Source: Acidimicrobiia bacterium (GTDB lineage: Bacteria; Actinomycetota; Acidimicrobiia; IMCC26256; PALSA-610). From it: DNA of 47,721 nucleotides. A program made the translations under genes and the position numbers. The notes under the pieces were generated by a model, which did no database searches, was not told the origin of the DNA, and saw nothing but the letters and a program-made list of their open reading frames with translations. The DNA lies in contig JADGOO010000033.1 in NCBI GenBank assembly GCA_017882905.1, forward strand, positions 1 through 47,721, given 5' to 3'. This document shows positions 8,400-23,822 of this stretch, piece by piece. How positions within the stretch are numbered: the first letter of the stretch is position 1; each line of letters opens with the position of its first letter.

Positions 8400-9961
8400 T
8401 GGATCCGGCCACGCTCGCAGTCCTCGTCGCTCGCCTCACCGGAGTGGCCCAGGAGATGGGTGCGGTGCTGCGGCGCGCCGCGTCGAGCCCCAACATCAAA
8501 GAGCGCGCGGATTGCTCAGCTGCGCTGTTCACGCCCGACGCGGAGCTGCTCGTGCAAGCCGAGCACATCCCCGTGCACCTCGGCGCCATGCCGGCGGCCG
8601 TGCGCGCGGCGATCGACGCGATGGCGGCGCGTGGTCATGTGTGGCGCCCGGGCGATCAGGTCGTGGTGAACGATCCCTTTGCCGGGGGCACCCATGTGAA
8701 CGACGTGACGCTCGTCGCGCCGGCCTTCACCGACGACGGCGCGTTGCTCGGCTGGGCGGCGAACCGCGCGCACCACGCCGATCTCGGCGGCATGGCCCCC
8801 GGTTCGATGCCCGCCGACGCCACTGAGGTGTTCCAAGAAGGCCTGCGCATTCCACCTGTGTTGCTCACGCACGACGTCGCCGAGATCTTCGTGGCGTCGT
8901 CGCGCACTCCGGAGGAACGGCGTGGTGACCTCGCCGCGCAGGCCGGCGCGAACGCCGTCGGCGTCGAGCGCCTGCGTGAGCTCGCGCCGCGTGGCGACGA
9001 CCTGGCCGAGATCGTCGCCTACGGCGAACGCCGCATGCGTGCCGCGCTCGACGCGTTACCCGATGGCGAAGTGCATGTGACCGATGTGCTCGACTCGGTC
9101 GGCGCCGGACCCGACGCGCGCACGCCGAGCACGATCGCTCTGACCGTGACGCTGCGCGGCGCACAGATCACGTTCGACTTCACCGGTAGCGCGCCACAAC
9201 GGCCCGGAACCGTGAACGCAGTGGAGGCCGTCACCCACAGCGCGGTGGCGTACGCGTTGCGCTGCGCGACCGATCCGACGATCCCGGCGAACGGTGGCGC
9301 GTTGCGGCCCGTGCGCGTGATCGCACCCGCCGGCACGGTGGTCGCCGCCGAGCTCCCCGTAGCGGTCGGCGCGGGCAACGTCGAGGTGAGCCAGCGCGTC
9401 GCCGACATGTGCTTGCGTGCGATGGCCTCGTTCGCGCCCGAGCGCGTGGGCGCCGGTGATCAAGGCACGATGAACAACGTGCTCATCGGCGGGCGGGGCG
9501 GCGCCGGCGGAGCCGGAGGCGGCTGGGTGTACTACGAGACGATCGGCGGTGGCCAAGGAGGGCGCCCTGGCCGCGCCGGGATGAGCGGCGTGCACACCGG
9601 GATGACGAACACGCTCGATACGCCTGTCGAGGCGATCGAGCGCACGTATCCGATGCGCGTGCGGCGGTACTCGCTGCGCACCGGGAGCGGTGGCCACGGC
9701 GCACACCCCGGTGGCGACGGCATCGTCAAGGAGTACGAGATGCTCGACACGGTGACCGTCTCGCTGATCACGGAGCGCCGGGTGAGCGCTCCTGCGGGCC
9801 TCGCCGGGGGAGGCGACGGCGCGGTGGGGGAGAACTGGCTGCTGCCGGCCGGCGACGAGGCCCGCGGTGTGCGCCTCGCCGACAAGTGCACGGTCGAGCT
9901 GCGGGCGGGTGACGTGCTGCGGATCATGACACCCGGCGGCGGCGGGTGGGGCCGGCCCTGA
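8396..9961 (+). CDS. hyuB: ATP-dependent hydantoinase/oxoprolinase, subunit B
   Basis: The partner subunit of HyuA, of the HyuB / oxoprolinase C-terminal family, is 521 residues long. Recognisable parts are SSPNIKERADCSAALF near the start, GDQVVVNDPFAGGTHVNDVTL, the FDFTGSAPQRPGTVNAVEA segment and the Gly-rich end GGGQGGRPGRAGMSGVHTGMTN. The C-terminus (RVRRYSLRTGSGGHGAHPGGDGIVKEYE) is typical. ATGATG at 8396 overlaps the hyuA stop, indicating translational coupling and a 1:1 complex in the cytoplasm. After its stop a new promoter with a double operator starts, so the operon probably ends here. Confidence 0.9.
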   Translation: MMDPATLAVLVARLTGVAQEMGAVLRRAASSPNIKERADCSAALFTPDAELLVQAEHIPVHLGAMPAAVRAAIDAMAARGHVWRPGDQVVVNDPFAGGTHVNDVTLVAPAFTDDGALLGWAANRAHHADLGGMAPGSMPADATEVFQEGLRIPPVLLTHDVAEIFVASSRTPEERRGDLAAQAGANAVGVERLRELAPRGDDLAEIVAYGERRMRAALDALPDGEVHVTDVLDSVGAGPDARTPSTIALTVTLRGAQITFDFTGSAPQRPGTVNAVEAVTHSAVAYALRCATDPTIPANGGALRPVRVIAPAGTVVAAELPVAVGAGNVEVSQRVADMCLRAMASFAPERVGAGDQGTMNNVLIGGRGGAGGAGGGWVYYETIGGGQGGRPGRAGMSGVHTGMTNTLDTPVEAIERTYPMRVRRYSLRTGSGGHGAHPGGDGIVKEYEMLDTVTVSLITERRVSAPAGLAGGGDGAVGENWLLPAGDEARGVRLADKCTVELRAGDVLRIMTPGGGGWGRP

Positions 9962-10078: not shown

Positions 10079-10900
10079 ATGAACCAACCCGAGCTCGACG
10101 AGCTCGACAACGTGTTCAAGGCCTTGGCCGATCCGAGCCGTCGACGGTTGCTCGACGGCTTGAACGAGCGCGGCGGCCAGAGCCTGCGCGAGCTCTGCGC
10201 GGGTCTCGACATGGCTCGCCAATCGGTGAGCAAGCACCTCGCGTTGTTGGAAGCCGCCAACCTCGTCACCACGTTGCGGCGCGGCCGCGAGAAGCTCCAC
10301 TACCTCAACGCGGCCCCGATCAACGAGATCGCCGACCGCTGGATCAATCACTACGACCGACAACGGGTGGCCGCGTTGGCCGACCTGAAATCCGCACTGG
10401 AAGGCGCACCGATGTCCGCGACGACGAAGCCCGAGTTCGTGTACACGACCTACATCCGCACCACACCGGAGCAGCTCTGGCGGGCGCTGACCGAGCCCGC
10501 GTTCACCCAGCGGTACTGGAAGACGTCGTTCGAGACCGACTGGTCCGTTGGCTCCGCGATGACGTGGGACAACCACGGCGTGCGGATCGAAGACCCCCAA
10601 CAGCGCGTGCTCGTCTACGACCCGTTCGAGCGCCTCTCGTACTCGTGGCACTCGTTCACGCCGGAGCTGTTCGCGGCGTCGAGCTTCACGAGCAGCGAGG
10701 AAGTGGCGCTCGCAGCCGAGCCGCGGTCGAAGGTGACGTTCGAGATCGAACAGCAGGGCGACACGTGCAAGCTCACCGTCGTGCACGACGACTTCGAACC
10801 CGGTGGCGTCGTCGCCCAGAAGGTCAGCCACGGTTGGCCGCGTGTGATGTCCGATCTGAAGTCGCTGCTCGAGACTGGTGATCCGTTGGGCGTGAGCTAG
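10079..10900 (+). CDS. ArsR-type regulator fused to SRPBCC (AHSA1-like) domain
   Basis: One 273-residue chain joins two domains usually made as neighbouring genes. Residues about 8-95 are an ArsR winged helix (VFKALADPSRRRLLDGL, recognition helix ARQSVSKHLALLE, wing RRGREKLHYLN). Residues about 117-265 are an SRPBCC/AHSA1 ligand-binding fold (YTTYIRTTPEQLWRALTEPAFTQRYW ... VTFEIEQQGDTCKLTVVHDDFE). No metal-binding cysteine motif of ArsR sensors is present, so the SRPBCC cavity probably senses a hydrophobic ligand directly. ATG 10079 is chosen because homology starts there; TTG 10070 is an in-frame alternative. The two 16-bp repeats upstream indicate autoregulation. Its stop overlaps the stop of the convergent amidohydrolase in the sequence CTAG. 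Confidence 0.88.
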   Translation: MNQPELDELDNVFKALADPSRRRLLDGLNERGGQSLRELCAGLDMARQSVSKHLALLEAANLVTTLRRGREKLHYLNAAPINEIADRWINHYDRQRVAALADLKSALEGAPMSATTKPEFVYTTYIRTTPEQLWRALTEPAFTQRYWKTSFETDWSVGSAMTWDNHGVRIEDPQQRVLVYDPFERLSYSWHSFTPELFAASSFTSSEEVALAAEPRSKVTFEIEQQGDTCKLTVVHDDFEPGGVVAQKVSHGWPRVMSDLKSLLETGDPLGVS

Positions 10901-12093
10901 ATCCGCAGACCGATCGCGTGCGGCGAACCCGGCTTCGGCAACGGGTGGCGGAACAGCTTGGCCGCGTTCTCGTGGCTGATCTGGGCGACCTCGTTGGCCG
11001 GCAGGTCGCCGTAGTACTTGGCGAACACGGCTTGCGTGTCGGGCCAGGTGCCGTCGCCGTGGGGGTAGTCGCTCTCGAACACGATGTTGTCGATACCGAT
11101 CGTGTAGCGCGTGGACAGCGTGGAAGGGTCGTCGATCGTGGAGAACCAGAAGTTGCGCAACAGCACCTCGGCGGGACGAAGATCACCCGGGAAGTACGAG
11201 CCGTAACCGCTGCGATCGACGATGTTCTCGAGCCGGTCGTAGAGCATCGCGACCCAACCGATCCCGCCTTCGCTCATGCAGATCTTCAGGTCGGGGAACT
11301 TCACCGGCCAGCGCGACCAGAGCCACTCGGCACACGACGACAGCGACAGCTGACCGAACAGGGTGGCGCCGAGCGGCACCATCGGCGCGCCGGGCGGCAT
11401 CGCCGCAACACCAGTGGACCCGACGTGCAGGCAGATCACGGTGTCGGTCTCGGCACACGCGCGGATGACCGGCTCCCACCAGTCGGAGAAGATCGGCTCC
11501 ATGCCCACGCGATGTGGCTGTTCGGGGAGGCTCACGGCCACGAAGCCGCGTGCCGCGTTGCGCCGGATCTCGGCGGCGGCAGCCTCGTTGTCGCCGAGGT
11601 ATGTGATGGCGACAGGGATGAAGCGTTCGGGATGCGGCGCGAACCACTCGTCGTAGAACCAATCGTTCCAGGCTCGTGTCGCGGCGAGACCCAGCTCCGG
11701 ATCCTTGGCTTCGGCGAACACCCGACCGCAGAAGCCCGAGATCTGCGACGCGAAGTTGGCCGAAGCCCAGACCCCATTGATGTCCATGTCGCGAACACGC
11801 GCGTCGGGGTCGTAACAGCCGGGCCGCATCTCTTCGAAGCGGGTCGGCTCGACCACCCAGTCTTCGCGGGGCCGTCCGACGACGGCGTTGAGGCCGACCT
11901 GGAAGTAGATCTTGCCGTCGAAGCCCCAGACCTCGTGGCCTTCCTCGGTCTCGATGATGCGCGGCGCATGCTGCTGGAGGTGCTTGGGCAAGCGTCCTTC
12001 GAACATGTGCGGCGGCTCGACCACGTGATCGTCGGCCGAGATCAACGTGTAGTGGATGGCGCGCGGCTCCGGGTCGGGCAGCAGCGCGTGCAT
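10897..12093 (-). CDS. amidohydrolase (amidohydrolase_2 family, ACMSD/decarboxylase-like)
   Basis: A 398-residue metal-dependent hydrolase or decarboxylase of the amidohydrolase_2 group. The metal site is visible as ISADDHVVEP near the N-terminus (the usual D-x-H form), CLHVGSTG in the middle and FESDYPHGDGTWPDT near the end. Homologues in actinobacteria are annotated only as amidohydrolases; ACMSD and gamma-resorcylate decarboxylase are characterised members. The start at ATG 12093 is uncertain: a GTG at 12125 would add 11 residues and lies nearer the preceding hydantoinase stop (12146). It is the last gene of the minus-strand operon that begins at 21704, so a decarboxylase or hydrolase step late in the same catabolic route is a fair inference. 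Confidence 0.82.
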   Translation of the reverse strand: MHALLPDPEPRAIHYTLISADDHVVEPPHMFEGRLPKHLQQHAPRIIETEEGHEVWGFDGKIYFQVGLNAVVGRPREDWVVEPTRFEEMRPGCYDPDARVRDMDINGVWASANFASQISGFCGRVFAEAKDPELGLAATRAWNDWFYDEWFAPHPERFIPVAITYLGDNEAAAAEIRRNAARGFVAVSLPEQPHRVGMEPIFSDWWEPVIRACAETDTVICLHVGSTGVAAMPPGAPMVPLGATLFGQLSLSSCAEWLWSRWPVKFPDLKICMSEGGIGWVAMLYDRLENIVDRSGYGSYFPGDLRPAEVLLRNFWFSTIDDPSTLSTRYTIGIDNIVFESDYPHGDGTWPDTQAVFAKYYGDLPANEVAQISHENAAKLFRHPLPKPGSPHAIGLRI

Positions 12094-12145
12094 CTCCGTC
12101 TTACGCCAGTTCAGCTTGATGCGCACGAGCGTACGCGACTCTCGC

Positions 12146-13540
12146 TCACCCACTCCAGACCGCGTGCCGCTCGAGGTAGCGGCCGGTGGCGGGCTCGGCG
12201 ATGCAGCGTCCGCGTTCGGCCACGAGCCGGCCGCGTGACCACACCGCCCGCGGCCAACCGGTGGTCGTGTGCCCGGCATACGGCGAGTGGTCCACAGCCA
12301 TGTGGAGGTCGCCCGCGGCCAGCCCCTGGGCATGCCGGGGATCCCACACCACCACGTCGGCGTCGCTCCCGATCTGCAGCGATCCCTTGGCGGGCCAGAG
12401 GCCGAACGTGCGCGCGGGCGCCTCGGCGCAGAGGCGAACCCAATCGGCGACGGTGATGCGCCCCGCGCGCACGCCGTCCCACACGAGCGCGAGGCGCGTC
12501 TCGATACCGGGCAATCCACCGGGGATCTCGGTGAAGTCGCGATAGCCGTCGGCGCGGGCTTGCGTGCCCGCGCGGCGATCGTGCATCCAGAAGGGACAGT
12601 GATCGGTGGCCACGGTGTGGATCCAACCGCGTGCCAGACCTTCCCACAGCTCGTCGGCGTGCCATGCGTCGCGCAGCGGCGGCGTGCACACGAAGTTCGC
12701 GCCGTCGTCGCGTTCGAGTGCCGACACGTCGAGGTACAGGTACTGCGGGCACGTCTCGGCAGCGATCCGCACGCCGCGCTCTTGCGCTTCCCGAACGGCG
12801 GCGAGCGCGGGCGCACTCGACAGGTGCACCACGTAGGCGTCGGCATCCGCCTGTTCGGCAAGGCGCGCCGCGCGTGCGGTGGCCTGCGCTTCGAGCTGCG
12901 CCGGTCGTGTGTTGGCGTGCTCGATCACACCCGTGCGGCCCGCAGCGAGTGCGGCTTGGCGCAACGATTCGATCGCGTCACCGTCTTCGCAGTGCAGCGT
13001 GACGAGTGCACCGTGCTTGCGAGCGTGGCGCATGATCTTCAGGATCGTGTCGTCGTCCACCTGCAACAGCTCGGGATACGCCATGTAGAGCTTGAAGCTC
13101 GTGACGCCGCGCGCCACGCAATCGGCGATCATGCGTTCCGGGACCGGTTCGGTGAACGTCATGTGGAGCCCGTAGTCGATGACGGACGGCTCGGCCCAGC
13201 TCTGCCATGTGGCTAGCGCGGCCAAGGGGTCTTCACCGCGGTACGCGGTCACGTAGTCGATGATCGTGGTCGTGCCCCCGATCGCGGCCGCGCGTGTTCC
13301 GGTGTCGAAGTCGTCGCTGACCCGCACGTTGCCCACTGGCAGGTGCAGGTGCGTGTGCACGTCGACACCGCCCGGCACGACGTAGCAGCCCGCGGCGTCG
13401 TAGGTGTCGTCGTCGGCCGTTGCATCGAGACCCGCGCTGACCGTGGCGATGCGACCGTCGGAGCCGAGGCGCACATCGGCGATGCGCTCCCCGTCGCAGT
13501 CGACGACGGTGCCGCCACGCACCAGCGTCGTACGGCTCAT
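12146..13540 (-). CDS. hydA: cyclic amidohydrolase: dihydropyrimidinase / D-hydantoinase
   Basis: A zinc-dependent enzyme that opens dihydropyrimidine or 5-substituted hydantoin rings to N-carbamoyl acids. The 464-residue protein shows the full binuclear metal set: HTHLHLP near residue 59-65, the lysine to be carbamylated in SFKLYMAYP, LHCEDGD, VHLSSAP and the final Asp in ATDHCPFWMHD. Length is typical. ATG 13540 overlaps the preceding dpaL stop as ATGA. In the E. coli purine cluster a hydantoinase of this type (HyuA/YgeZ) also sits close to the diaminopropionate lyase YgeX. Its products would be substrates for the two carbamoylases at the head of this operon. Confidence 0.93.
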   Translation of the reverse strand: MSRTTLVRGGTVVDCDGERIADVRLGSDGRIATVSAGLDATADDDTYDAAGCYVVPGGVDVHTHLHLPVGNVRVSDDFDTGTRAAAIGGTTTIIDYVTAYRGEDPLAALATWQSWAEPSVIDYGLHMTFTEPVPERMIADCVARGVTSFKLYMAYPELLQVDDDTILKIMRHARKHGALVTLHCEDGDAIESLRQAALAAGRTGVIEHANTRPAQLEAQATARAARLAEQADADAYVVHLSSAPALAAVREAQERGVRIAAETCPQYLYLDVSALERDDGANFVCTPPLRDAWHADELWEGLARGWIHTVATDHCPFWMHDRRAGTQARADGYRDFTEIPGGLPGIETRLALVWDGVRAGRITVADWVRLCAEAPARTFGLWPAKGSLQIGSDADVVVWDPRHAQGLAAGDLHMAVDHSPYAGHTTTGWPRAVWSRGRLVAERGRCIAEPATGRYLERHAVWSG

Positions 13541-14682
13541 GCCTTCGTGACGTCGGGCGCACCGGGGGCGTGGCCGACGATCTGCTCGTAGCTCTCCGGG
13601 TCGGTGGCGCCTTCGGTGACCAGCAGGAGGACCGTGGCATCGTCGGTGAGCCCCACGAGGTCGCGGCCGCCGAGCTCGATCACGCCGAGCGCGCCGGCGA
13701 GGGCGGCCGCGCCGGTCTCGCCCGCTTCGATGCCGTCGGCGGCGAGCAGGCGCATGGCTTGTTCGGCGCGGCCGTCGTGCACGGTGACGCACCAGTCGAG
13801 CCCGGCCAGCAGGACCGGGAAGGCGATGAGGGAGGCGTTGCCGCAGTTGAGCCCGACCATCATCGATCGGTGCGGACCGGGAACCTCCACCATGTGTCCG
13901 TCGCGGACCGAAGCGAGCACGCACGCCGCGTCGGCCGGCTCCACGCTCACGAGCTTCGGCCGTGGCACGTGGTGCGCGTAGGCCGCCACACCGCTCGCCG
14001 CGAGCGCTCCGACTCCGGCCGGCAGCATCACCACGCTGACGGTGCTTTGTCCGGCGAGCTGGTCGTCGATCTCCGCGAAGATCGTCGCGTAGCCCTCGAT
14101 CACGTGGCGCGGAGTGTCTTCGTAACCGGGCCACGACGTGTCGGAGATGACCACGCAGTCGTCGCTCTGCATCGCCGCGCTCTGCGCCACGGCATCGTCG
14201 TAGGTGCCATCCACGAGCACCACGGTGGCGCCTTCACTCTTGATCGCGGCGATGCGCGCCGCGGTCATGTCATCGGGCACGAAGATCGTCGCATCGAGCT
14301 CGAGCAGCTTCGCCATGCGCGCCACGGCGCGGCCGTGATTCCCGTCGGTGGCCGCGGCGAGACGCAGCGGCCGCAGCGGCGCGACCGCGACGCGGAGCTC
14401 GTCGATCGTGGACCACTGCGGCTCGCCGCCGAGCCGCGCCACGAGCGCACGGTACGTGGCCCACGACGCGCCGAGCATCTTGAACGCGGGCAGCCCGAGC
14501 CGGTCGGACTCCACCTTCACGAGCACGCGTGCCACGCCGAGTCGCGCGGCGAGCGCGGGAGATTCGCGCAGGGGAGTGGGCGCGTAGCCGGGCAGCTTGC
14601 GGTGCAGCTCGAGCGGCTCGCGTGTCGATGCGAACGGCACCGGATCGTCCGATCGGTGCGGGTTCTTCAGGAGCTCTTCCAC
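13537..14682 (-). CDS. dpaL: 2,3-diaminopropionate ammonia-lyase (PLP enzyme)
   Basis: DpaL/YgeX is a fold-type II PLP enzyme that turns 2,3-diaminopropionate into pyruvate and two ammonia. In the 381 residues, GLPAFKMLGASWATYRAL carries the PLP lysine, ATDGNHGRAVARMA the phosphate-side Asn/His-Gly motif, VMLPAGVGALAASGVAAYA the Gly-rich phosphate loop, and EGATDPESYEQIVG closes the protein as in the family. Threonine dehydratases differ in these segments (SxKxRG, SxGNHAQG). GTG 14682 shares one base with the stop of the preceding oxidoreductase gene. Its presence in a purine/hydantoin operon is the clearest hint that the route ends at diaminopropionate. Confidence 0.88.
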   Translation of the reverse strand: MEELLKNPHRSDDPVPFASTREPLELHRKLPGYAPTPLRESPALAARLGVARVLVKVESDRLGLPAFKMLGASWATYRALVARLGGEPQWSTIDELRVAVAPLRPLRLAAATDGNHGRAVARMAKLLELDATIFVPDDMTAARIAAIKSEGATVVLVDGTYDDAVAQSAAMQSDDCVVISDTSWPGYEDTPRHVIEGYATIFAEIDDQLAGQSTVSVVMLPAGVGALAASGVAAYAHHVPRPKLVSVEPADAACVLASVRDGHMVEVPGPHRSMMVGLNCGNASLIAFPVLLAGLDWCVTVHDGRAEQAMRLLAADGIEAGETGAAALAGALGVIELGGRDLVGLTDDATVLLLVTEGATDPESYEQIVGHAPGAPDVTKA

Positions 14683-15683
14683 TAGATGCCGCCCGCGAAC
14701 GCGTCGATCATCAGGCGCGCGTCGGCACCGAGCGGATACAGGATCGGGCACGTGCAACCGTGATCGATGTAGCGCTGCACCTGCTCGCGGCACTCTTCGG
14801 CGGTCCCGCTCGCGGTGAGCATCTGCACCACGTCGTCGGGTACGAGCTTGCTCGCGGCGACCACTTGTTCGTGCGTTGCCGGCCAGGTGAGCACCTTGCC
14901 GATCTCGTCGAGCACCGATTCGGGCACGCCGCTCGCCTTCATGATGTGCGGCTGCTGACCGAGGTACTGCGTGACCATGAGCCGCGCGTCGTCGAGCGCG
15001 CGGGCACGATCGGGGTCGAGTGAGCACACGACGAGCTGCGGTCGGTCGAGGTCGTCGACGCTGCGTTTGGCCCGCGCGGCTCCCACTTCGAGATGCTGCA
15101 TCGCTCGCTCGTTGTAGTCGGGTGACACGAGGTAGTTCAGCACCACACCGTCGGCGATCTCGCCGGTGAGCTCCATCATCTGCATCCCCGTCGCCCCGAT
15201 GTAGATCGGCACGTCCTTCGCGCGGCGCTCTTGATACACGTAGTCGAGCTCCACGCCGTCGAGGTGCACGTACTCACCGTCGAACGTGACCGTCTCGTTG
15301 TGCAGGAGCGCTCGAACCGTGGTCACGATCTCGCGCATCACCGTGATCGGCCGGGCCCGTGAGATCCCCACCTTGGCGGCCAGCGGATCCCACCACGCGC
15401 CGATCCCGAGGAGCACTCGCCCGGGCGCGAGATCGTCGAGCGTGGAGAACGTGGCCGCGAGCCGCGCCGGGTTGCGGCTCCAGCAGTCGACCACGCCCGA
15501 GCCCACCTTGATGCGCTCGGTGGTGGCGGCGAAGGCAGCCATCGGTACGGTCGCCTCGCGCACGAGACGGCTCTCGGCCTGCCAGACCGCATGGAAGCCC
15601 TGTTGTTCGGCGTACTGCGCGAGGGCCATCGCTTCGCGCAGTGGATGCGCATCCTGCAGGTAGATCGCCACCGGGGTCGTCAT
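14682..15683 (-). CDS. F420-dependent LLM-class oxidoreductase
   Basis: A 333-residue luciferase-like TIM-barrel oxidoreductase. Features are the N-terminal [17 protein letters not shown] segment, [47 protein letters not shown] (typical of the F420/methylene-H4MPT reductase-like group) and the [26 protein letters not shown] segment. Actinobacterial members mostly use coenzyme F420, though FMN use cannot be excluded from sequence. It lies between the SsnA-like gene and dpaL in one operon, which suggests it reduces or oxidises an intermediate of that pathway. The related gut-bacterial clusters have a different reductase, YgfK, at this point. Confidence 0.85.
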
Positions 15684-15722
15684 CGCGCTCCTGATCGTGT
15701 ACGAGCCGTGGGGTTGATCTTC

Positions 15723-16748
15723 TCAGAGCCGAGCGAACAAGCGCCGAGCATGGCGCGCCGCGGTGGCTCGCACCTCGTCGGGGTCGACCCGCGTGGCGAT
15801 GCCATCACGCAGCATCGTCTCGCCGTCGATCACCACCTCACGGGCGCGCAGCCCCGGCGAGAACGCCACGAACCACGGATCATCGGCGCCATCAGCCGAC
15901 CACGTGACCGTGTCGCCGCGGGCTTCGGGCACGAGGTCGTAGCCGGCCTCGAGCCAGCGCCACACGGTGGTCGGTGTCTCGGTCACGTCGTGTTCTCGGA
16001 GCCGCACGTAGGCGAGTCGCACCTCCTCGAGCATGTCGGCGCCGATGCCGTCGGTGCCGAGGACGACACGGTTCGAGAAGCGCGCCGGGCGTCCGTAGCC
16101 GACCGCGTTGTTCATGTTGCTGCGCGGGTTGTGCGCGATGAGACCGCGCAGACCAGCGTGCTCGTCGAGCTGCACGCAGTGCACGAGCAGCCAATCATCA
16201 GCCGTGAGGTGCGCGAGACGCTTCGGCGCGTCGATGTCGTCGACGGCTTCGGCCACATGGATGTGCACGCCCACGCCGAGATCGCTCGCGAGTCCCGCCG
16301 CGGCCTCGATGGTCGCGTCGCTGCAGGTGAAGGCCGCGTGCAGCCCCACAAAGCCTCGTCCGCCGGCGCGCAGGAACCGCTCGTTCTCGGCCAGCCCGCG
16401 ACCGGCGCCTTCGGGACCGTGCCGATCGGTGGCGCCGTACGCGCAGAGCACTCGCACGCCGACCTCGGCACACGCATCGGCGATCACCGTGAGCGAGCCT
16501 TCGATCGCGTTCGGCGACTCGTGATGGTCGATGATCGCCGTCGTACCGCACTCGAGTGCTTCGAGTGCGCCGAGGCGCGCCGCGGCGCGGATCATCTCGA
16601 GATCGAGGGCCACGTCGACGCGCCACCAGATCTGCTCGAGGATCTCGATGAATCGCGTCGGTGTCTTCGGAGGCGCCGGCATGCCTCGCGCCAGCGCCGA
16701 GTAGAGGTGATGGTGCGCGCACACCATCCCGCCGGTGGTGCGGCTCAT
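15723..16748 (-). CDS. ssnA: SsnA-like amidohydrolase lacking the N-terminal domain
   Basis: A deaminase-type amidohydrolase related to SsnA and guanine deaminases. The metal motif AHHHLYSALARGM appears at residue 11, directly after the start, whereas full-length family members (about 440 residues) carry some 50-60 residues of beta-sandwich first. The rest is intact: LECGTTAIIDHHESP, VHIHVAEAVDD, WLLVHCVQLD, NPRSNMNNAVG and RVVLGTDGIGAD with the catalytic Asp. A C-terminal strand REVVIDGETML of the beta-sandwich remains. ATG 16748 overlaps the XdhD-like stop as ATGA, leaving no room for a longer start. In E. coli ssnA also lies next to xdhD. The name is by homology and context; the substrate is unknown. 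Confidence 0.78.
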   Translation of the reverse strand: MSRTTGGMVCAHHHLYSALARGMPAPPKTPTRFIEILEQIWWRVDVALDLEMIRAAARLGALEALECGTTAIIDHHESPNAIEGSLTVIADACAEVGVRVLCAYGATDRHGPEGAGRGLAENERFLRAGGRGFVGLHAAFTCSDATIEAAAGLASDLGVGVHIHVAEAVDDIDAPKRLAHLTADDWLLVHCVQLDEHAGLRGLIAHNPRSNMNNAVGYGRPARFSNRVVLGTDGIGADMLEEVRLAYVRLREHDVTETPTTVWRWLEAGYDLVPEARGDTVTWSADGADDPWFVAFSPGLRAREVVIDGETMLRDGIATRVDPDEVRATAARHARRLFARL

Positions 16749-19429
16749 GGCGAGCTGGGATCGGTGACACCCGCGGCCGCCGGCCGGCCCATCGGCAGCG
16801 TGGCGCGCCACTCGCCGTCGCGATCGTGCAGCGCCGCCGCCACGGCACCGGCCGTGGGGACCAGACCGATCTCGCCCACGCCTTTGATCCCGTACGGCGC
16901 GCGGGGTTGTGGTGCTTCGACCAGGATCACGTCGACCGGCGGCATGTCCTTGGCCCGCAAGATGCCGAGGCTGCGCAGCGTGGTGTTCACGGGGCGGCCG
17001 TTGTCGTCGGACGGGAACTGTTCGGTGAGCGCGTAGCCGAGACCCATGTGCACGGCGCCTTCGATCTGGCCCTCACACAGCTGCGGGTTCACCGCTCGTC
17101 CCACATCGTGCGCGGCCACGACCCGTTCGATCGCGCCGCTCTCGCGATCGAGGATGACGAGCTGCGCGGCGTACCCGAACGCCGAGTGGATCACCGGATT
17201 CTCGAGCCCCTCGGACAGCGCGCTCGTCCAATCCACACGGAACTCGCCGTCGTAGTCGATGCCCACGCGGCAGCCGTCGGCGACCGCGGCCCGGCACGCT
17301 TCGGCCACCGAGCCCGCGCCCATGAGAGTGCCGCGTGAGCCAGTGGTCTGGCCGGCGCCGAGCTCACGTGTGGTGTCGACGACGACGCGCACGCGGGCCG
17401 GGTCGATGCCGAGCTCCTCGACAGCCACCTGCAACGCCACCGTGTGCACGCCTTGGCCCATCTCGGTCCAGCAGTGGCGGACCTCGACGGTGCCGTCGGG
17501 TTCGAATCGGACGACGGCGCGCGCCACTTCCTTGAAGCCGTTGCCGAGGCCACTGTTCTTCAGGCCGAGACCCACGCCGACCGCCTTGCCTTCGGCCCGA
17601 GCCGCGTCGTAGTACGGCTTGACGGCGTCGAGACATTGGCGAACTCCGGCACAGCCGTCGTCCATGATCTGACCGGGGCCCCACACCACACCGGGCTCGA
17701 TCGCGTTGCGAGCGCGGATCTCCCAACCGCTGATGCCCACCTGCTCGGCGAGCCGATCGAGCACGCCTTCCATCGCGAACTGCGCCTGGTTGGCGCCGAA
17801 CCCTCGGAACGCGCCGCACACGGGGTTGTTGGTGCGCGCCGCCACAGCTTCCACGTCGATGGTGGGCAGGTGATACGGCCCGCTCGCGTGGCCCGCCGCG
17901 CGTTCGAGCACCTTCATACCCACGCTCGCGTAGGCACCGGAATCGCCGACCATGCGCGCCTTGAGCGCGGTGAGCTTGCCGTCGGCGTCGCAGCCGGCCC
18001 AGTACTCCATCCGGATCGGGTGCCGCTTGGGATGCATCAACAGGCTCTCTTCGCGAGAGAGCGTGCACTTCACCGGTCGTTGCACGAGCCAGGCCGCCAG
18101 CGCAGTCTGCGCCTGGTTGCTCATGTCTTCCTTGCCGCCGAACGCTCCGCCGTTGCTCACGAGCTCGACGGTGACGCGGTCCTTGTCGACGTCGAGCACG
18201 GCCGCGATCTGGTCGCGGTCGTCCCAGACGCCTTGACCGCCCGAGTACACGTGCAACGTGCGGCTGGTGAGATCAGGTACCGCGAGCGTGGCTTCCGGCT
18301 CCAGGAAGGCGTGTTCGATGCGCTGCGTCTGGAAGATCTCGTGCACCACGTGCGAGCTCGCGGCCAAGGCCGTCTCCACATCGCCGCGCGCGTACACGGA
18401 TCGAGAGAGCACGTTGGTCTCGGTGCCCCAGACGGCGATCTCTTCGTCGATGACGGCGGCGGCCGCGTCGGTGATCGTTCGCAACGGCGTGTACTCGACG
18501 GTGACGAGCGAAGCCGCATGACGCGCAACCTCGCGATCGCCGGCGACCACGACGGCGATCACGTCGCCGAGGTAGCTCGTGCGGCCGCCCTCGGGGATGA
18601 AGACCGGCCAATCCTTGTGGATGATGCCGACTCGCAACGTGCCCGGAACGTCGGCCGCGGTGAAGACCGCCTCGACGCCGGGGAATGCGCGCGCCGCGGC
18701 CGTGTCGATGCGCACGACCTCGGCGCGCGCGTGATCGGTGAGGCGCAGCGCCGCGTGCAACATGCCCTCGACCCGGAGATCGTCGACATAGCCACGGTCG
18801 CCGAGCGCCAACGCCTCGGCCTCGTACTTCGCTCCGTTGCTGCCGATGCCGTGCGGCAATGTCGTAGGCGCAACGTCGGCGCCCGAGGCGAGCAGGTCGA
18901 TCGCGTCGAGGATCTTGATGTAGCCGGTGCAGCGGCACAGGTGGGAGCCGAGCAGGCGGGCGACTCCATCGCGGTCGTCGGCCTTGCCGCGGTCGAGTAG
19001 CGACTTGGCGCGCATCACGATCCCCGGTGTGCAGAAGCCGCACTGCAACGCCCCGCACGCCGCGAACGCGCGGGCGTACCGGTCGCGTTCGGCATCGTCG
19101 ACGCCTTCGAGGGTGAGGACGGTCTTGTCCGTGACCTTCGTCATCGACGTCTGGCACGCGACCACGGCCTTGTCGTCGATGATCACCGTGCAACAGCCAC
19201 ACTGACCGGTGGGGGAGCAGCCGTCCTTCGGTGATGTGACGTTCAGCTCCTCGCGCAATGCCGCGAGCAGGTGTGGGTGGTCGGAGCGCACCGTGACCTC
19301 GGCGCCGTTCAGTGTGAACGTCGTGCCCCCCTCGCTCGCACGGCCGCTTCGAGCCTCGGCGGGCCGGGCGTCTTCGTCCCCCGCTCGGCCGTGGCTCGCG
19401 CCCCCTGGGGCATTGTGGATCACGGTCAT
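16745..19429 (-). CDS. xdhD: XdhD-type molybdenum hydroxylase ([2Fe-2S] and Mo domains fused)
   Basis: An 894-residue fusion resembling E. coli XdhD and the family annotated as selenium-dependent xanthine dehydrogenase. Residues 1-35 are a variable Gly/Ala/Arg-rich lead. Residues about 36-175 hold two [2Fe-2S] clusters: Cys71, Cys77, Cys80 and Cys92 (GCSPTGQCGCC ... AC), and Cys130, Cys133, Cys165 and Cys167 (QCGFCTPG ... LCRCTGY). The molybdopterin domains follow, with GGAFGGKEDMSNQ, CGAFRGFGANQAQFAMEG, TGSRGTLMGAG and the catalytic Glu in IKGVGEIGLVPTAGA. There is no FAD domain, so electrons leave by an external partner. The same frame stays open to 20410 across the nitrilase gene, but homology starts only here; ATG 19429 lies 12 bp after that gene. 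Confidence 0.88.
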   Translation of the reverse strand: MTVIHNAPGGASHGRAGDEDARPAEARSGRASEGGTTFTLNGAEVTVRSDHPHLLAALREELNVTSPKDGCSPTGQCGCCTVIIDDKAVVACQTSMTKVTDKTVLTLEGVDDAERDRYARAFAACGALQCGFCTPGIVMRAKSLLDRGKADDRDGVARLLGSHLCRCTGYIKILDAIDLLASGADVAPTTLPHGIGSNGAKYEAEALALGDRGYVDDLRVEGMLHAALRLTDHARAEVVRIDTAAARAFPGVEAVFTAADVPGTLRVGIIHKDWPVFIPEGGRTSYLGDVIAVVVAGDREVARHAASLVTVEYTPLRTITDAAAAVIDEEIAVWGTETNVLSRSVYARGDVETALAASSHVVHEIFQTQRIEHAFLEPEATLAVPDLTSRTLHVYSGGQGVWDDRDQIAAVLDVDKDRVTVELVSNGGAFGGKEDMSNQAQTALAAWLVQRPVKCTLSREESLLMHPKRHPIRMEYWAGCDADGKLTALKARMVGDSGAYASVGMKVLERAAGHASGPYHLPTIDVEAVAARTNNPVCGAFRGFGANQAQFAMEGVLDRLAEQVGISGWEIRARNAIEPGVVWGPGQIMDDGCAGVRQCLDAVKPYYDAARAEGKAVGVGLGLKNSGLGNGFKEVARAVVRFEPDGTVEVRHCWTEMGQGVHTVALQVAVEELGIDPARVRVVVDTTRELGAGQTTGSRGTLMGAGSVAEACRAAVADGCRVGIDYDGEFRVDWTSALSEGLENPVIHSAFGYAAQLVILDRESGAIERVVAAHDVGRAVNPQLCEGQIEGAVHMGLGYALTEQFPSDDNGRPVNTTLRSLGILRAKDMPPVDVILVEAPQPRAPYGIKGVGEIGLVPTAGAVAAALHDRDGEWRATLPMGRPAAAGVTDPSSP

Positions 19430-19440
19430 GGCGTCAGCTT

Positions 19441-20379
19441 TCAGGGTGGCGGGGGGATGGCGCCGCGGCGCTCGGTGATGAGGCCGTACACCTCGGGCCG
19501 GCGGTAGCGGTCGAAGTCGAAGAGCGTGTGCTTGTACTGGGCGCACCGGTCGAGGTCGCATTCGGCCACCACGACCTCGTCGCCGGCCGTGGTGCACTGT
19601 GCGACGATCTGGCCCGACGGGGCCACGATCACCGACTGTGCGAGCGCGTCGACGCCTTCCTCCACGCCACACTTGGCGACGCCCACGACCCACATGCCGT
19701 TCTGGTAGGCGCCCGATTGCAGCACGAGATGATTGTGGAAACCGGCGAGCGCGTCCTGCGTGGGGTCGGGCGCGTAGTGGATCGGCGTGTTGTAACCGAT
19801 CAACGCGAGCTCGCAGCCCTGCAATGCGAGCACTCGGTACGTCTCGGGCCACCGACGATCGTTGCAGATCGCCATGCCCACGATGCCGCCGAACGCGCGC
19901 CACACGTCGAACGAAGAACCCGGCTCGAAGTAGCGGCGTTCGAGATGCTGGAACGGTCGCCACGGTTCGTGTTCCTCGTGGCCCGGGAGATGCACCTTGT
20001 GGTACTTGCCCACGATGGCGCCCCGGCCGTCGACGAGGATGCTCGTGTTGTAGCGGTGGCGCGTGCCGGAGCTGTCGTCGGCCTCGGCATAGCCGAACGA
20101 GAAGCCGATCCCGAGCCGGAGCGCTTCGTCGAAGAGCGGTTTCGTGGCCGCCGACGGCATCTCCGTCTCGAAGAACACATCGACCTCGGCCCAGTCGGCA
20201 AAGAACCAACGAGGAAAGAAGGTGGTGAGGGCGAGCTCGGGGAACACGACGAGCTGCGCGCCGCCGGCACGGGCGCGGTGCAACAACGCGATCATCCGAT
20301 CGACGACGTCGGCACGGGGCTCGTCGCGTGCGATCGGTCCCATCTGTGCCGCCGCGATCCGCACCGACCGATCCGTCAT
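19441..20379 (-). CDS. N-carbamoyl-D-amino acid hydrolase (nitrilase superfamily)
   Basis: A 312-residue carbon-nitrogen hydrolase very similar to the D-carbamoylase used in hydantoin routes, which releases ammonia, CO2 and a D-amino acid. The catalytic triad is visible: Glu48 in FPELALTTFFPRW, Lys in GKYHKVHLPGHEEHEPWRPFQHLE, and Cys in GMAICNDRRWPETYRV. The surrounding segments (GFSFGYAE, RRYFEPG, YNTPIHYAPDP, YQNGMWVVGVAK) follow that subfamily closely. ATG 20379 overlaps the M20 gene stop as ATGA. Being between an L-type carbamoylase and the XdhD-like gene, it probably removes a ureido group from a ring-opened intermediate. Confidence 0.92.
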   Translation of the reverse strand: MTDRSVRIAAAQMGPIARDEPRADVVDRMIALLHRARAGGAQLVVFPELALTTFFPRWFFADWAEVDVFFETEMPSAATKPLFDEALRLGIGFSFGYAEADDSSGTRHRYNTSILVDGRGAIVGKYHKVHLPGHEEHEPWRPFQHLERRYFEPGSSFDVWRAFGGIVGMAICNDRRWPETYRVLALQGCELALIGYNTPIHYAPDPTQDALAGFHNHLVLQSGAYQNGMWVVGVAKCGVEEGVDALAQSVIVAPSGQIVAQCTTAGDEVVVAECDLDRCAQYKHTLFDFDRYRRPEVYGLITERRGAIPPPP

Positions 20380-21704
20380 GACTCCCGCTCCCCGATCTGC
20401 GCAGGGGCACCCCGGTCCGCGTCGTCGAGCAGCGCCGATTCGGTGCTGAGGGCGAGCAGGGTGTGGAGGAGCACGTTCGCGCCGGCCTCGAGGTCGGCGG
20501 GGTCGGTGTGCTCGGCGACGTTGTGCGACAAGCCCTTGTGGCTCGGTACGAAGATCATCCCTGTGGGGCACACGCGCGCCAGCATCTGCGCGTCGTGGCC
20601 CGCGCCCGACGGCATGCGCCGAACGGAGTACCCGAGCGTGCGTGCCGTGTCGTCGACGAGTGCGATCACGCGCTCGTCGAATTCCACCGGCTCGAAGCGC
20701 GCGGTGGAGCGGCTCTCGATCTCGACGTGTTCGTCGGACGCGATCGTGGCGACGGCATCGGCAAGGAGCTCTTCGGCGCGGCGCAGCTCGGCTTCGTCGG
20801 TGTTGCGCAGGTCGACGGTGAGCGTTGCGCGCCCCGCGACGACGTTCACGAGATCGGGTTGCAGGCGCAGTGATCCGACGGTGCCCACCTGGTGGCGACC
20901 GACTGCCGCGATGACCTCGCGGACCGCGACGGCGATCCGGGCCGCCGCGTGGCCGGCGTCGTGGCGCATCGACATGGGCGTGGTGCCGGCGTGGTTCGAC
21001 TGACCGGTGACGCTGATCTCCTGCCACGAGATGCCCTGCACGCTCGTGACCGCGCCGATGGTGATGCCGGCGGCTTCGAGCACTGGGCCCTGTTCCACAT
21101 GCACCTCGACGAACGCGTGCGGAGGCGGACCCGGACACGGGAACGGGCCCCCATAGCCGATGCGCGCGAGCTCGTCGCCGAGACGCGCGCCGTCGATGCC
21201 GATCGTGTCGAGTGCAGTCTCGACGTCGAGCCCGCCCGCGTACACGAGCGAACCGAGCATGTCGGGTGGGAAGCGCGCGCCCTCTTCATCGGTGAAGAAG
21301 GCGACGGCGATCGCGCGATCCGTGCTGATGCCGGCGCGCTCGAGCGTCTCGATGACCTCGAGGCCGGCCAGCACGCCGAAGGTGCCGTCGTACTTGCCGC
21401 CGGTTCGGACGCTGTCGATGTGGGAGCCGCACATCACCGGCGCGAGATCGGGTCGGCGGCCGCCTCGGGTGGCGATCACGTTGCCGATGGCGTCGATGTG
21501 AACGTCGAGCCCGAGGTCGTGCATCCACGCGACGACCACCTCACGCGCGTCGCGGTCGTGTTCGGTCAACGCGAGGCGACACACGCCACCGCCGTCGATG
21601 GCGCCGACTGCGGCGAGGTCCGTGAGCCGGTCGAGGAGCCGGGCGCCGTCGACGCGCAGCTCGGCCGCGGCATCGGAGCGCGCGCGCACCGGCTCGGCCA
21701 TCAT
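20376..21704 (-). CDS. M20-family N-carbamoyl-L-amino acid hydrolase / allantoate amidohydrolase
   Basis: A 442-residue binuclear metal hydrolase, first gene of the long minus-strand operon. Metal ligands can be seen in CGSHIDSV (His), GKYDGTFGVLAG (Asp), FFTDEEGARFPP (Glu-Glu), AFVEVHVEQGP (His) and KGLSHNVAEHT (His). QGISWQEISVTGQSNHAGTTPM marks the lid domain of the hydantoinase/carbamoylase branch (HyuC, AmaB, AllC). Such enzymes hydrolyse ureido groups of carbamoyl-L-amino acids, ureidopropionate or allantoate. The start is ATGATG at 21704/21701. A three-codon ORF (ATG 21712) ends in a TGA overlapping this ATG. The operator at 21725-21739 lies just upstream. Confidence 0.9.
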   Translation of the reverse strand: MMAEPVRARSDAAAELRVDGARLLDRLTDLAAVGAIDGGGVCRLALTEHDRDAREVVVAWMHDLGLDVHIDAIGNVIATRGGRRPDLAPVMCGSHIDSVRTGGKYDGTFGVLAGLEVIETLERAGISTDRAIAVAFFTDEEGARFPPDMLGSLVYAGGLDVETALDTIGIDGARLGDELARIGYGGPFPCPGPPPHAFVEVHVEQGPVLEAAGITIGAVTSVQGISWQEISVTGQSNHAGTTPMSMRHDAGHAAARIAVAVREVIAAVGRHQVGTVGSLRLQPDLVNVVAGRATLTVDLRNTDEAELRRAEELLADAVATIASDEHVEIESRSTARFEPVEFDERVIALVDDTARTLGYSVRRMPSGAGHDAQMLARVCPTGMIFVPSHKGLSHNVAEHTDPADLEAGANVLLHTLLALSTESALLDDADRGAPAQIGERES

Positions 21705-21823: not shown

Positions 21824-22066
21824 ATGGCACGCTTGCGGGCTGAGTTCACCGTTGAGCCGTTTGCCGACGGCGCACCCGGACCGCATGTGCGGGCTGCGAT
21901 CGAGGCCGCCGAGCACACCGGCCTCGAGCCCGATGTGGGTCCGTTCGGGACGACGATCGAGGGCGACGAACCGATCGTGTCGGAGGCAGTCGGCGCGCTG
22001 GTGACCGCCGCGTTCGCGGCCGGCGCCACCCGAGTCTCGATGACAGTCGAGCGAGCGAGCCAGTGA
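21824..22066 (+). CDS. MTH1187/UPF0045-type thiamine-binding domain protein
   Basis: A small 80-residue cytoplasmic protein of the MTH1187/YkoF-like family: FTVEPFADGAPGPHVRAAIEAAEHTGLEPDVGPFGTTIEGDE and the closing GATRVSMTVER follow the family consensus. Members form ferredoxin-like-fold oligomers, and some bind thiamine or its pyrimidine moiety. The ATG lies 8 nt after a TACACT -10 box, so the mRNA is probably leaderless. It is followed after 22 bp by the regulator gene. A small-molecule buffering or sensing role beside the regulator is possible but unproven. Confidence 0.75.
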   Translation: MARLRAEFTVEPFADGAPGPHVRAAIEAAEHTGLEPDVGPFGTTIEGDEPIVSEAVGALVTAAFAAGATRVSMTVERASQ

Positions 22067-22088: not shown

Positions 22089-22463
22089 GTGGCGCGCCGT
22101 CATCCGCTGCTCGCGGCTGTGCAGCCCGTGGCCGACGCGCTCGGTGCGACGGTGGTGGCGCGCACGCGACTTGAGCCGAGTGACATCCCGCTGCAGTGGG
22201 AGGGGGAGGTCGTCGGCGGTCTGCGGCTGCCCGATCGCCAGGTGGGCCTGGCGCCGTTGATCGCGGAAGTGGAACGCGAGCTCGGTGCGCCGCTCGGTGA
22301 TCTGTCGCGCGAGGACAAGCAGCAGGCGGTGCGCTTGCTCGAGGCGAGAGGTGCGTTCACGTTGCGCAAGAGCATCGAAGACGTCGCCGACGCGATCGGT
22401 GTGAGCCGCATCACGGTCTACAACTATCTGCACGCTGTCCGTGACGCGGGGGCCGACGCTTGA
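22089..22463 (+). CDS. short YheO/DauR-type HTH regulator, candidate controller of both flanking operons
   Basis: A 124-residue protein. The C-terminal half (LSREDKQQAVRLLEARGAFTLRKSIEDVADAIGVSRITVYNYLHAVR, about residues 75-120) matches the helix-turn-helix that ends YheO/DauR regulators. The N-terminal half (about 1-70, HPLLAAVQPVADALGATVVARTR ... WEGEVVGGLRLPDRQVGLAPLI) is about half the length of the PAS-like sensor domain in those proteins, so it is either a reduced sensor or a different one. The gene lies between two divergent catabolic operons, each preceded by the same palindrome. The first arm of operator copy 2 starts inside its last codons. The start is GTG 22089, without a strong ribosome-binding site. 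Confidence 0.75.
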   Translation: MARRHPLLAAVQPVADALGATVVARTRLEPSDIPLQWEGEVVGGLRLPDRQVGLAPLIAEVERELGAPLGDLSREDKQQAVRLLEARGAFTLRKSIEDVADAIGVSRITVYNYLHAVRDAGADA

Positions 22464-22488
22464 CATTTTGTCAACCAGTCGGTTGGAT
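22460..22488 (+). promoter_or_regulatory. promoter with operator copy 2 and a second inverted repeat
   Basis: TTGACA-TTT-TGTCAA (22460-22474) is a perfect 15-bp palindrome whose left arm is also a consensus -35. TTGGAT (22483-22488) is the -10 after a 17-nt spacer, and ATG 22498 follows by 9 nt. A second, TetR-like inverted repeat CAACC-AGTC-GGTTG (22472-22485) fills the spacer and overlaps the -10. Two proteins could therefore compete here. Confidence 0.78.
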
Positions 22489-22497
22489 GGATCGACG

Positions 22498-23343
22498 ATG
22501 ACGGTGCTGGCGCCCACCGATCTCGACGGCGCGCTCGCGGCGTTGGCCGAGCGGCCTGATGCGACCGTCCTCGCCGGCGGCACCGACTTGATGGTCGAGC
22601 TGAACTTCGGCCATCGACGCGCCGGCGTGTTCGTGAGCCTGCGTCGAGTGCGCGAGCTGCGCGAATGGAGCCGCGTCGGTGATGAGCTGACGATCGGCGC
22701 GACGGTTACCTACACCGGCCTCGAACGAGGTCAGATCGCGACGCTCGTGCCTGCACTCGCGCAGGCGGCGCGCACAGTGGGATCGCCGCAGATCCGCAAT
22801 GCGGGAACGATCGGGGGCAATCTCGCAACCGCGTCGCCCGCGGGCGACACCTTGCCCGTGCTGAGCGCGCTCGACGCGGTTGTGGTGTGCGCGAGCGCGT
22901 CGGCGGGCCGGCGCGAAGTATCCGTGCACGACTTCCTGGTTGGTCCGAAGCGTTCGGCGCTCGCGGCGGGCGAGCTCGTGGTGGCGGTGCGCGTTCCGGT
23001 GCTCAGCGGTCCGCAGGAGTTCTTGAAGGTGGGCACGCGCAACGCGATGGTGATCTCGATCGCGGGTGTCGCGCTCGTGACCGACGCCGCGCGCGGCGGG
23101 CTGCGTTGCGCGCTCGGCAGTGTGGGGCCCACGGCGCTGCGTGCCGCGGATGCCGAGTCGTTCGCGGCCACGGCCGTGGAGTGGCCGAGTCGTCGCGCCA
23201 CACCGGAGGCGGCCATCGAGTTCGGGCGGCTCACGGCGGGTGCCGCGCGTCCTATCGACGACCATCGGGCGACGGCGCACTACCGGCGGCATGCCGTCGA
23301 GGTGTGCGCCCGGCGTGCCTTCGAGCGCGTGACGCTGCGATGA
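22498..23343 (+). CDS. xanthine dehydrogenase-type FAD-binding subunit
   Basis: The 281-residue medium subunit (CoxM/XdhB type) passes electrons from the iron-sulfur subunit to FAD. The FAD site is seen in ATVLAGGTDLMVELNFG (about 22-38) and in QIRNAGTIGGNLATASPAGDTLPVLSALDA (about 99-128); the C-terminal CO-dehydrogenase flavoprotein domain follows. ATG 22498 is used because it lies directly behind the promoter at 22460-22488; the same frame is open to 22441 but that would run through the operator. It is the first gene of a five-gene operon and overlaps the next by ATGA. Confidence 0.9.
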   Translation: MTVLAPTDLDGALAALAERPDATVLAGGTDLMVELNFGHRRAGVFVSLRRVRELREWSRVGDELTIGATVTYTGLERGQIATLVPALAQAARTVGSPQIRNAGTIGGNLATASPAGDTLPVLSALDAVVVCASASAGRREVSVHDFLVGPKRSALAAGELVVAVRVPVLSGPQEFLKVGTRNAMVISIAGVALVTDAARGGLRCALGSVGPTALRAADAESFAATAVEWPSRRATPEAAIEFGRLTAGAARPIDDHRATAHYRRHAVEVCARRAFERVTLR

Positions 23344-23822
23344 CCTACGCATTGCACGTCAACGGAGCCGAGCATCACGTGGCCGATGGCTGGCCGGGCG
23401 AGAGCCTGCTCTACGTGCTGCGCGAGCGCATCGAGCTGCCCGGTGCGAAGAACGCGTGCGAACAGGGCGAGTGCGGTAGCTGCTCGGTGCTGGTCGACGG
23501 TCTGCTCGTGTGCAGCTGCCTCGTGCTCGCCGAGAGCGTGTCGGGGTGCGAGATCGAGACGATCGAGCGTCACTCGGCGCTGAGTCGCGTGCAGCAGGCC
23601 TTCGTGGATGCCGGTGCGGTGCAGTGCGGCTTCTGCACGCCTGGGCTGGTCGTGGCGATCGAGGATCTGCTCGATCGCGAGCCGGAACCCGACGAGCTGA
23701 CCGTTCGCGAAGCCATCTCGGGCAACTTGTGCCGCTGCACCGGGTATGGCCGGATCCTGGAAGCGGTGCGCCGCGCGGTGGCCGACCCGCGTGCGGCCGT
23801 GCCACCGACGGAACCGTCATGA
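23340..23822 (+). CDS. xanthine dehydrogenase-type [2Fe-2S] subunit
   Basis: The 160-residue small subunit carries two [2Fe-2S] clusters. The plant-ferredoxin-type site is ACEQGECGSCSV with the later CSC (about residues 40-61). The C-terminal four-helix site is VQCGFCTPG (about 96-104) and LCRCTGYGRI (about 131-140). All eight cluster cysteines are present. It overlaps both neighbours by ATGA, the usual FAD / iron-sulfur / molybdenum order of a three-subunit molybdenum hydroxylase, and should form a heterohexamer with them in the cytoplasm. Confidence 0.92.
   Translation: MTYALHVNGAEHHVADGWPGESLLYVLRERIELPGAKNACEQGECGSCSVLVDGLLVCSCLVLAESVSGCEIETIERHSALSRVQQAFVDAGAVQCGFCTPGLVVAIEDLLDREPEPDELTVREAISGNLCRCTGYGRILEAVRRAVADPRAAVPPTEPS

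Follow-up and report, generated by a model that had tools for sequence, protein, structure and literature searches.

The reductive pathway of urate degradation was elucidated in gut anaerobes in 2025, and a commentary confines it to anaerobes, whether obligate or facultative (PMC12990295). In E. coli and C. difficile, XdhD converts urate to yanthine, YgfK dearomatises the product, SsnA and HyuA open the two rings, and a pair of ureido cleavages leads to diaminopropionate and finally to pyruvate (PMC12507026). The E. coli genes are arranged as ygeW-ygeX-ygeY-hyuA ... ygfK-ssnA-ygfM-xdhD (PMC12507026). In ssnA clusters of Chloroflexota, a putative F420-dependent dehydrogenase of the luciferase family has been predicted to act as the yanthine reductase, and the accessible text of the same paper describes no actinobacterial cluster (PMC12507026).

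The window – the whole 47,721-nucleotide stretch analysed here, from a member of the Acidimicrobiia – contains an operon that quite probably encodes a reductive route from uric acid to pyruvate with an F420-type reductase. Like the E. coli cluster, it combines an XdhD-like protein, an SsnA-like protein, a HyuA-like hydantoinase and a YgeX-like lyase, follows the same order of chemistry and has xanthine dehydrogenase genes close by. Unlike that cluster, it lacks YgfK, YgfM, YgeW, YqeA and YgeY, and has instead a reductase of the LLM class (luciferase-like hydride transferases), a D-carbamoylase and an M20 enzyme of the TIGR01879 type. The case for the pathway draws on gene content and order, homology, conserved residues, patterns of co-occurrence and replacement, and the absence of cofactor-free uricase and OHCU decarboxylase genes. 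As an F420-type yanthine reductase had already been suggested in print for Chloroflexota, we regard the operon as a variant of a known pathway; the original prediction of an undescribed variant holds for the assembly of genes and for the lineage, but not for the replacement by an F420/luciferase-type protein (PMC12507026).

Operon architecture and homologues of the E. coli enzymes

The operon comprises eight intact minus-strand ORFs (21704–10897), all of them open. Its borders, when checked, agreed with the predicted pattern of 4-bp overlaps and short gaps: neighbouring genes overlap by 1–4 bp or are separated by at most 52 bp. The overlaps measure 4 bp at the M20/D-carbamoylase, XdhD/SsnA and DpaL/hydantoinase borders and 1 bp between LLM and DpaL; the gaps are 11 bp (D-carbamoylase/XdhD), 39 bp (SsnA/LLM) and about 52 bp (hydantoinase/Amidohydro_2). 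The order M20 – D-carbamoylase – XdhD – SsnA – LLM is found again in many named relatives, far above chance.

Divergently transcribed from the plus strand are genes for a thiamine-binding-protein family protein (21824–22066; PF01910) and an HTH_22 regulator (22089–22463; PF13309), the latter kept beside the cluster in relatives. They are followed, on the same strand, by the three subunits of a xanthine dehydrogenase: a PucC-like FAD subunit (22441–23343; PF00941), a PucE-like 2Fe-2S subunit (23355–23822, start approximate; Fer2_2; 49% identity to E. coli XdhC) and the molybdenum subunit PucD (23819–26008; TIGR03196, 811.7 bits against a cut-off of 783.65). An 8-oxoguanine deaminase, whose product is urate, is encoded on the minus strand at 29231–30688 (NF006055, 604.6 bits, cut-off 532). 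The PucCDE and deaminase genes adjoin the operon and recur beside the ssnA loci of relatives; adenosine deaminases are also encoded within the window. None of these genes had entered the original prediction.

Of the four homologues on which the original prediction was built, three score above their family cut-offs and the SsnA-like one below. The hydantoinase (12146–13540, minus strand) passes the D-hydantoinase/dihydropyrimidinase model TIGR02033 (490 bits, cut-off 393) and is 41% identical to E. coli HyuA. A reading in terms of allantoinase and allantoate was rejected, as the same protein reaches only 260 against an allantoinase cut-off of 358 but passes as a D-hydantoinase. The 2,3-diaminopropionate ammonia-lyase (YgeX/DpaL; 13537–14682, minus strand) scores 315.8 bits against NF006058 (cut-off 276), though it stays under the cut-off of TIGR03528; K77, D120 and D189 of E. 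coli YgeX are conserved in the alignment, and the nearest solved structure is 4d9g. For the SsnA-like aminohydrolase (15723–16748, minus strand), SsnA is the best NCBIfam model, with a score (245.8 bits) below the cut-off of 444. This protein belongs to a clade that lacks about 56 N-terminal residues, a short form kept in relatives, and is 36% identical to residues 57–357 of E. coli SsnA.

The XdhD-like molybdenum hydroxylase (16745–19429, minus strand) narrowly passes TIGR03311 (834.1 bits, cut-off 830.45). It carries 2Fe-2S and molybdenum domains on a single chain without an FAD domain, and no FAD subunit gene lies within the operon, in which it resembles the XdhD/XdhAC of C. difficile and C. 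sporogenes (PMC12507026, PMC12990295). Its identity to E. coli XdhD is 24%, and the E606 column falls in a gapped stretch of the alignment. This distance, the name of the TIGR03311 family (xanthine dehydrogenase) and the haem-copper oxidase genes of the host, which make urate reduction less expected, would suit an enzyme that hydroxylates hypoxanthine or another purine, so that the same purine end is reached from an entry other than urate. We consider this unlikely, as both PucCDE and the 8-oxoguanine deaminase beside the operon yield urate, and as clostridial enzymes, apparently akin to TIGR03311, reduce urate to yanthine (PMC12990295).

An LLM-class protein as the likely replacement of YgfK

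Directly after ssnA lies a gene for a luciferase-like LLM protein (14682–15683, minus strand), and it was predicted that such a reductase is present where YgfK and YgeW are absent. The distribution of the two reductases agrees with this. Among 217 genomes of the class, ssnA is found in 95; an LLM orthologue occurs in 43 of these and YgfK in 54, and neither occurs in any of the 122 genomes without ssnA. Thirty-nine of the ssnA-positive genomes have only LLM, 50 only YgfK, four both and two neither, and in the four with both, the LLM gene sits alone on a separate contig. The neighbourhoods of ssnA, counted with tblastn, show the same exclusion: LLM is present at 58 of 89 loci, YgfK at 20 and the two together at none, the gene lying directly downstream of ssnA on the same strand in 47/58 and 18/20 cases, respectively. 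As LLM and YgfK are confined to ssnA-positive genomes and rarely occur together, LLM very likely replaces YgfK. The SsnA tree requires at least three switches between the two, including two in small clades with strong support, and the curated model identifies the replaced protein as YgfK (844.5 bits, cut-off 835.3).

At the level of the order, SsnA and LLM share the same 12 of 58 genomes, in which YgfK is represented only by partial, GltD-like matches; one such match is likewise all that the host's own genome contains. UacX, the PydA-like protein of C. difficile and C. sporogenes, is absent from the operon, where LLM is found instead. In relatives the XdhD–SsnA order is recurrent; hydantoinase and DpaL genes lie near ssnA in only a minority of LLM loci (6/58 and 7/58, respectively), many of these loci being on short contigs.

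The closest match to LLM among solved proteins, in both sequence and fold, is the F420-dependent Mer. Together with the substitution for YgfK, this suggests that the reductase is probably F420H2-dependent, which would make a purine the substrate of a new F420-dependent activity. The own genome encodes CofD and a fused FbiC for F420 biosynthesis; F420 genes do not serve to tell LLM genomes from YgfK genomes, as nearly all of either kind carry them. The LLM superfamily also includes FMN-dependent monooxygenases, and further down the list of fold matches come some bacterial luciferases. It is nevertheless very unlikely that LLM oxidises another intermediate as such a monooxygenase, with the dearomatising reductase encoded elsewhere, given that F420 enzymes head its matches in both sequence and fold and that its distribution is that of a substitute for YgfK. 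As an F420-dependent yanthine reductase, LLM would parallel both the PF00296 protein predicted for Chloroflexota and the F420H2-dependent picrate hydride transferase Fht, an LLHT-family enzyme that passes hydride to an aromatic ring, albeit that of a nitroaromatic compound rather than a purine (PMC8498797). The five named Chloroflexota loci among the closest SsnA matches carry YgfK, not LLM.

Carbamoylases and neighbouring hydrolases

Neither YgeW nor UacY is encoded in the operon, and YgeW-like matches at the ssnA loci of relatives are confined to five YgfK loci. The predicted D-carbamoylase (19441–20379, minus strand), of the nitrilase superfamily, is well founded: it aligns over its full length with solved N-carbamoyl-D-amino-acid hydrolases (402 bits to 6lcg, against 65 bits for the best match outside this group), with the CNDRRW motif and the catalytic E/K/C in place. 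We propose that it substitutes for YgeW or UacY. Ureido cleavage would then be hydrolytic, without the carbamoyl phosphate of the E. coli route; hydrolysis of the 2-ureido group would be shared with C. difficile and C. sporogenes, where UacY belongs to the D-aminoacylase family rather than to the nitrilase fold.

The M20 protein (20376–21704, minus strand) had been likened to YgeY. It is indeed a carbamoylase by its profile match to the hydantoinase/carbamoylase family TIGR01879 (416 bits, cut-off 204), its nearest named relatives being N-carbamoyl-beta-alanine, N-carbamoyl-L-amino acid and allantoate amidohydrolases, but it is not of the YgeY type: it belongs to the TIGR01879 subfamily and has no BLAST match to the E. 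coli protein. Its gene is kept beside that of the D-carbamoylase in relatives, and we propose that the enzyme takes YgeY's place.

D-hydantoinases and D-carbamoylases form a known enzyme pair. Their presence in one operon, with genes for an ATP-type HyuA/HyuB pair nearby (6624–9961), might thus reflect the use of environmental hydantoins or carbamoyl-D-amino acids, XdhD, SsnA and LLM being unrelated neighbours. This appears highly improbable: the D-carbamoylase adjoins XdhD–SsnA–LLM in 35 of 58 LLM loci, where the hydantoinase is less frequent, and DpaL and PucCDE would be left without a role. The ATP-type pair was itself rejected as a part of the urate pathway, since it is not found near ssnA of relatives. 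Nor did the second amidohydrolase hold up as a changed pathway part: the Amidohydro_2 gene (10897–12093, minus strand; PF04909) occurs in the window and otherwise only in a small number of close relatives, so its product is probably accessory and unlikely to catalyse a pathway step.

Proposed route and host physiology

In the proposed reductive route, PucCDE and the 8-oxoguanine deaminase would supply urate, from which XdhD, with an electron donor that we can only infer, would strip the 6-oxo group to give 2,8-dioxopurine (yanthine). LLM would pass a hydride from F420H2 to yanthine, abolishing its aromaticity – the job of YgfK – and SsnA would open the pyrimidine ring, yielding ureidomethyl-hydantoin and pulling the LLM step forward. 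The D-hydantoinase would open the remaining ring to 2,3-diureidopropionate. The D-carbamoylase would hydrolyse the 2-ureido group, which sits on the R/D centre, and the 3-ureido group would fall to the M20 enzyme, before DpaL converts diaminopropionate to pyruvate and ammonia. The hydantoinase, D-carbamoylase, M20 enzyme and DpaL thus cover the steps that remain after SsnA, in line with the prediction that the locus follows the logic of the E. coli urate-to-diaminopropionate cluster, even though each reaction, like the order and stereochemistry of the ureido cleavages, is read from sequence. Several observations weigh against the route: the distance of XdhD from its E. coli counterpart, the lack of an FAD subunit gene in the operon, the low SsnA score, the scarcity of hydantoinase and DpaL genes near ssnA at LLM loci, and the four genomes that have both LLM and YgfK. 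The pairing of D-hydantoinase with D-carbamoylase agrees with the proposal that the ureido intermediates have the R configuration. The D-carbamoylase is also relevant to two questions raised with that proposal, namely the order in which the two ureido groups are lost and the assignment of the intermediates as R/D (PMC12990295).

As regards the oxidative route, cofactor-free uricase (PF01014) is absent from 58 genomes of the order, and OHCU decarboxylase (PF09349) from the own genome. It is about an even chance that a whole class of actinobacteria, for the most part uncultured and respiring aerobically, has the reductive urate route as its main purine pathway, with an F420H2-dependent yanthine reductase repeatedly swapping with YgfK. 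The operon bears, too, on the origin of the gut pathway, be it within the gut itself or by inheritance from bacteria of the environment. Haem-copper oxidase genes are present in the own genome and in 22 of the 23 carriers tested of the clade, a marine planktonic lineage included; together with the occurrence of the ssnA marker in close to half of the class genomes (95/217), this contrasts with the description of the pathway as confined to anaerobes.

A probable variant of the reductive urate pathway

The reductive urate pathway, reconstituted in vitro by Li et al. 2025, proceeds from urate to yanthine (2,8-dioxopurine) by XdhD–YgfM, to ureidomethyl-hydantoin by the reductase YgfK or UacX with SsnA, to diureidopropionate by HyuA, to albizziin by YgeW or UacY and, via diaminopropionate, to pyruvate by YgeY and YgeX; Actinomycetota were already noted there as SsnA carriers (PMC12507026).

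As originally predicted, one minus-strand operon (21704-10897) carries such a set: all eight genes were found, intact and closely spaced, in the order M20 carbamoylase, nitrilase-fold D-carbamoylase, XdhD-like molybdenum hydroxylase, SsnA-like aminohydrolase, luciferase-like (LLM) reductase (14682..15683, minus strand), 2,3-diaminopropionate ammonia-lyase (DpaL), D-hydantoinase and Amidohydro_2. The predicted families hold above curated cut-offs for XdhD (TIGR03311), DpaL (NF006058), hydantoinase (TIGR02033) and M20 (TIGR01879), and less firmly for SsnA, whose models are the best match yet score below cut-off to a protein lacking the N-terminal domain. This short form is usual in its clade, most relatives having a start codon 9 residues ahead of the metal-binding motif. 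DpaL retains the E. coli YgeX residues K77, D120 and D189, which have a catalytic role in that enzyme.

We regard the operon as a new variant of the known pathway – a likeness in working that is well supported, with activities predicted – and consider the pathway reading of these predicted enzymes likely. Strictly taken, it belongs to neither the E. coli nor the C. difficile type, because YgfK/UacX, YgeW/UacY and YgeY are all replaced. The variant is new, as anticipated, but its substitute reductase has a forerunner: a luciferase-family, putatively F420-dependent protein was already noted in Chloroflexota where YgfK/UacX would be (PMC12507026). In contrast to that report, the Chloroflexota loci nearest to the host's SsnA clade (L040, L045, L059, L072 and L076) have YgfK.

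A luciferase-like reductase in the slot of YgfK

The expectation that LLM stands in for a missing YgfK was supported among 89 ssnA loci, drawn from named bacterial genomes (80 loci, most of them from uncultured Acidimicrobiia and some from Chloroflexota and Acidobacteriota) and from the host's order: 58 have LLM, 20 YgfK, none both and 11 neither. The reductase gene lies directly downstream of ssnA on the same strand in 47 of 58 and 18 of 20 cases, respectively, and the YgfK-like protein is genuine YgfK (TIGR03315, 844.5 versus 835.3). Among the order's 58 genomes, SsnA and LLM orthologues share the same 12, and none has YgfK above its cut-off. Across the host's class, which its named relatives indicate to be Acidimicrobiia, SsnA occurs in 95 of 217 genomes, LLM (at least 71% identity) in 43 and YgfK in 54, every one SsnA-positive (39 LLM only, 50 YgfK only, four both, two neither); neither reductase was found in the 122 SsnA-negative genomes. 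Where both occur, YgfK adjoins ssnA and LLM stands alone elsewhere. Since the loci are related, the association p-values (about 1e-12 and 1e-19) overstate independence; the better argument is replacement in the same slot together with the SsnA tree, which requires at least three changes between the two states, two of them within strongly supported small clades.

LLM is strongly conserved (78% mean column identity across 35 loci). By both sequence and predicted fold (pLDDT 87.8) its closest counterpart is F420-dependent methylene-tetrahydromethanopterin reductase, followed by other F420 enzymes; the host genome encodes CofD and a fused FbiC, both above cut-offs. We infer that LLM is F420-dependent. 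The standard potential of F420 is -340 mV. The reduction of yanthine proposed here has a precedent in a related luciferase-like hydride transferase, which passes hydride to picrate's aromatic ring (PMC8498797).

In many genomes of the class, ssnA adjoins a ~600-aa YgfK form (e.g. locus L130, G104:C7:18530-19738) whose match to the model is confined to its N-terminal part (about positions 4-400); this form lacks the GltD-like part and may use another electron donor. Three ssnA–LLM loci from records titled Bifidobacterium breve (L033, L062, L079) group with uncultured actinobacteria in the SsnA tree, and the organism names of these records look wrong.

Proposed ureido cleavage and lyase steps

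Among the questions that a commentary lists as open are which ureido group is cleaved first and with what stereochemistry (PMC12990295). YgeW, correctly predicted to be missing from the operon, has relatives in five YgfK loci and in none of the 58 LLM loci. The nitrilase-fold protein is by sequence a D-carbamoylase (402 bits against 6lcg, compared with 65 bits for the next family), present in 35 of 58 LLM loci and 0 of 20 YgfK loci, an absence that is weak since many of the latter are short contigs. The M20 enzyme is related to N-carbamoyl-beta-alanine amidohydrolase. Because a D-carbamoylase accompanies a D-hydantoinase, these assignments suggest an R/D intermediate whose 2-ureido group would be hydrolysed by the D-carbamoylase and whose 3-ureido group would then fall to the M20 enzyme.

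Near ssnA in loci without DpaL are two PLP fold-type-II proteins of 497 aa and ~449 aa (L090, PALP c7; L097, PALP c9), possibly an alternative diaminopropionate lyase; DpaL occurs in eight loci and PALP c7 in 14, never together.

Physiology and the purine neighbourhood

The pathway has been said to be confined to obligate or facultative anaerobes (PMC12990295). The host encodes a haem-copper oxidase, as do 22 of the 23 carriers tested; cofactor-free uricase was not found in the 58 genomes of the order, nor OHCU decarboxylase in the host genome (completeness estimate 100%).

Divergent from the operon lie an HTH_22 regulator and then PucC, PucE and PucD of xanthine dehydrogenase (PucD, 811.7 bits versus a cut-off of 783.65). 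Farther off in the window are an 8-oxoguanine deaminase (above cut-off), additional amidohydrolases, two adenosine deaminases, an NMT1-type ABC transporter, a Rieske oxygenase and several 2-oxoglutarate-type oxygenases. These surroundings form a purine island, which would supply the operon with its substrate, urate made from xanthine or 8-oxoguanine.

The stretch 29231-47720, with several IPNS-like 2OG-Fe(II) oxygenases, a PhyH protein, a VanA-type Rieske oxygenase, several amidohydrolases and the two adenosine deaminases, may be a module that acts on modified purines. A third large molybdenum-hydroxylase subunit (33983-36298, minus strand) lies away from any obvious FAD or 2Fe-2S subunits, and a HyuA/HyuB-type pair (caprolactamase/oxoprolinase-like; 6624-9961, plus strand) adjoins the operon and is not conserved with it.
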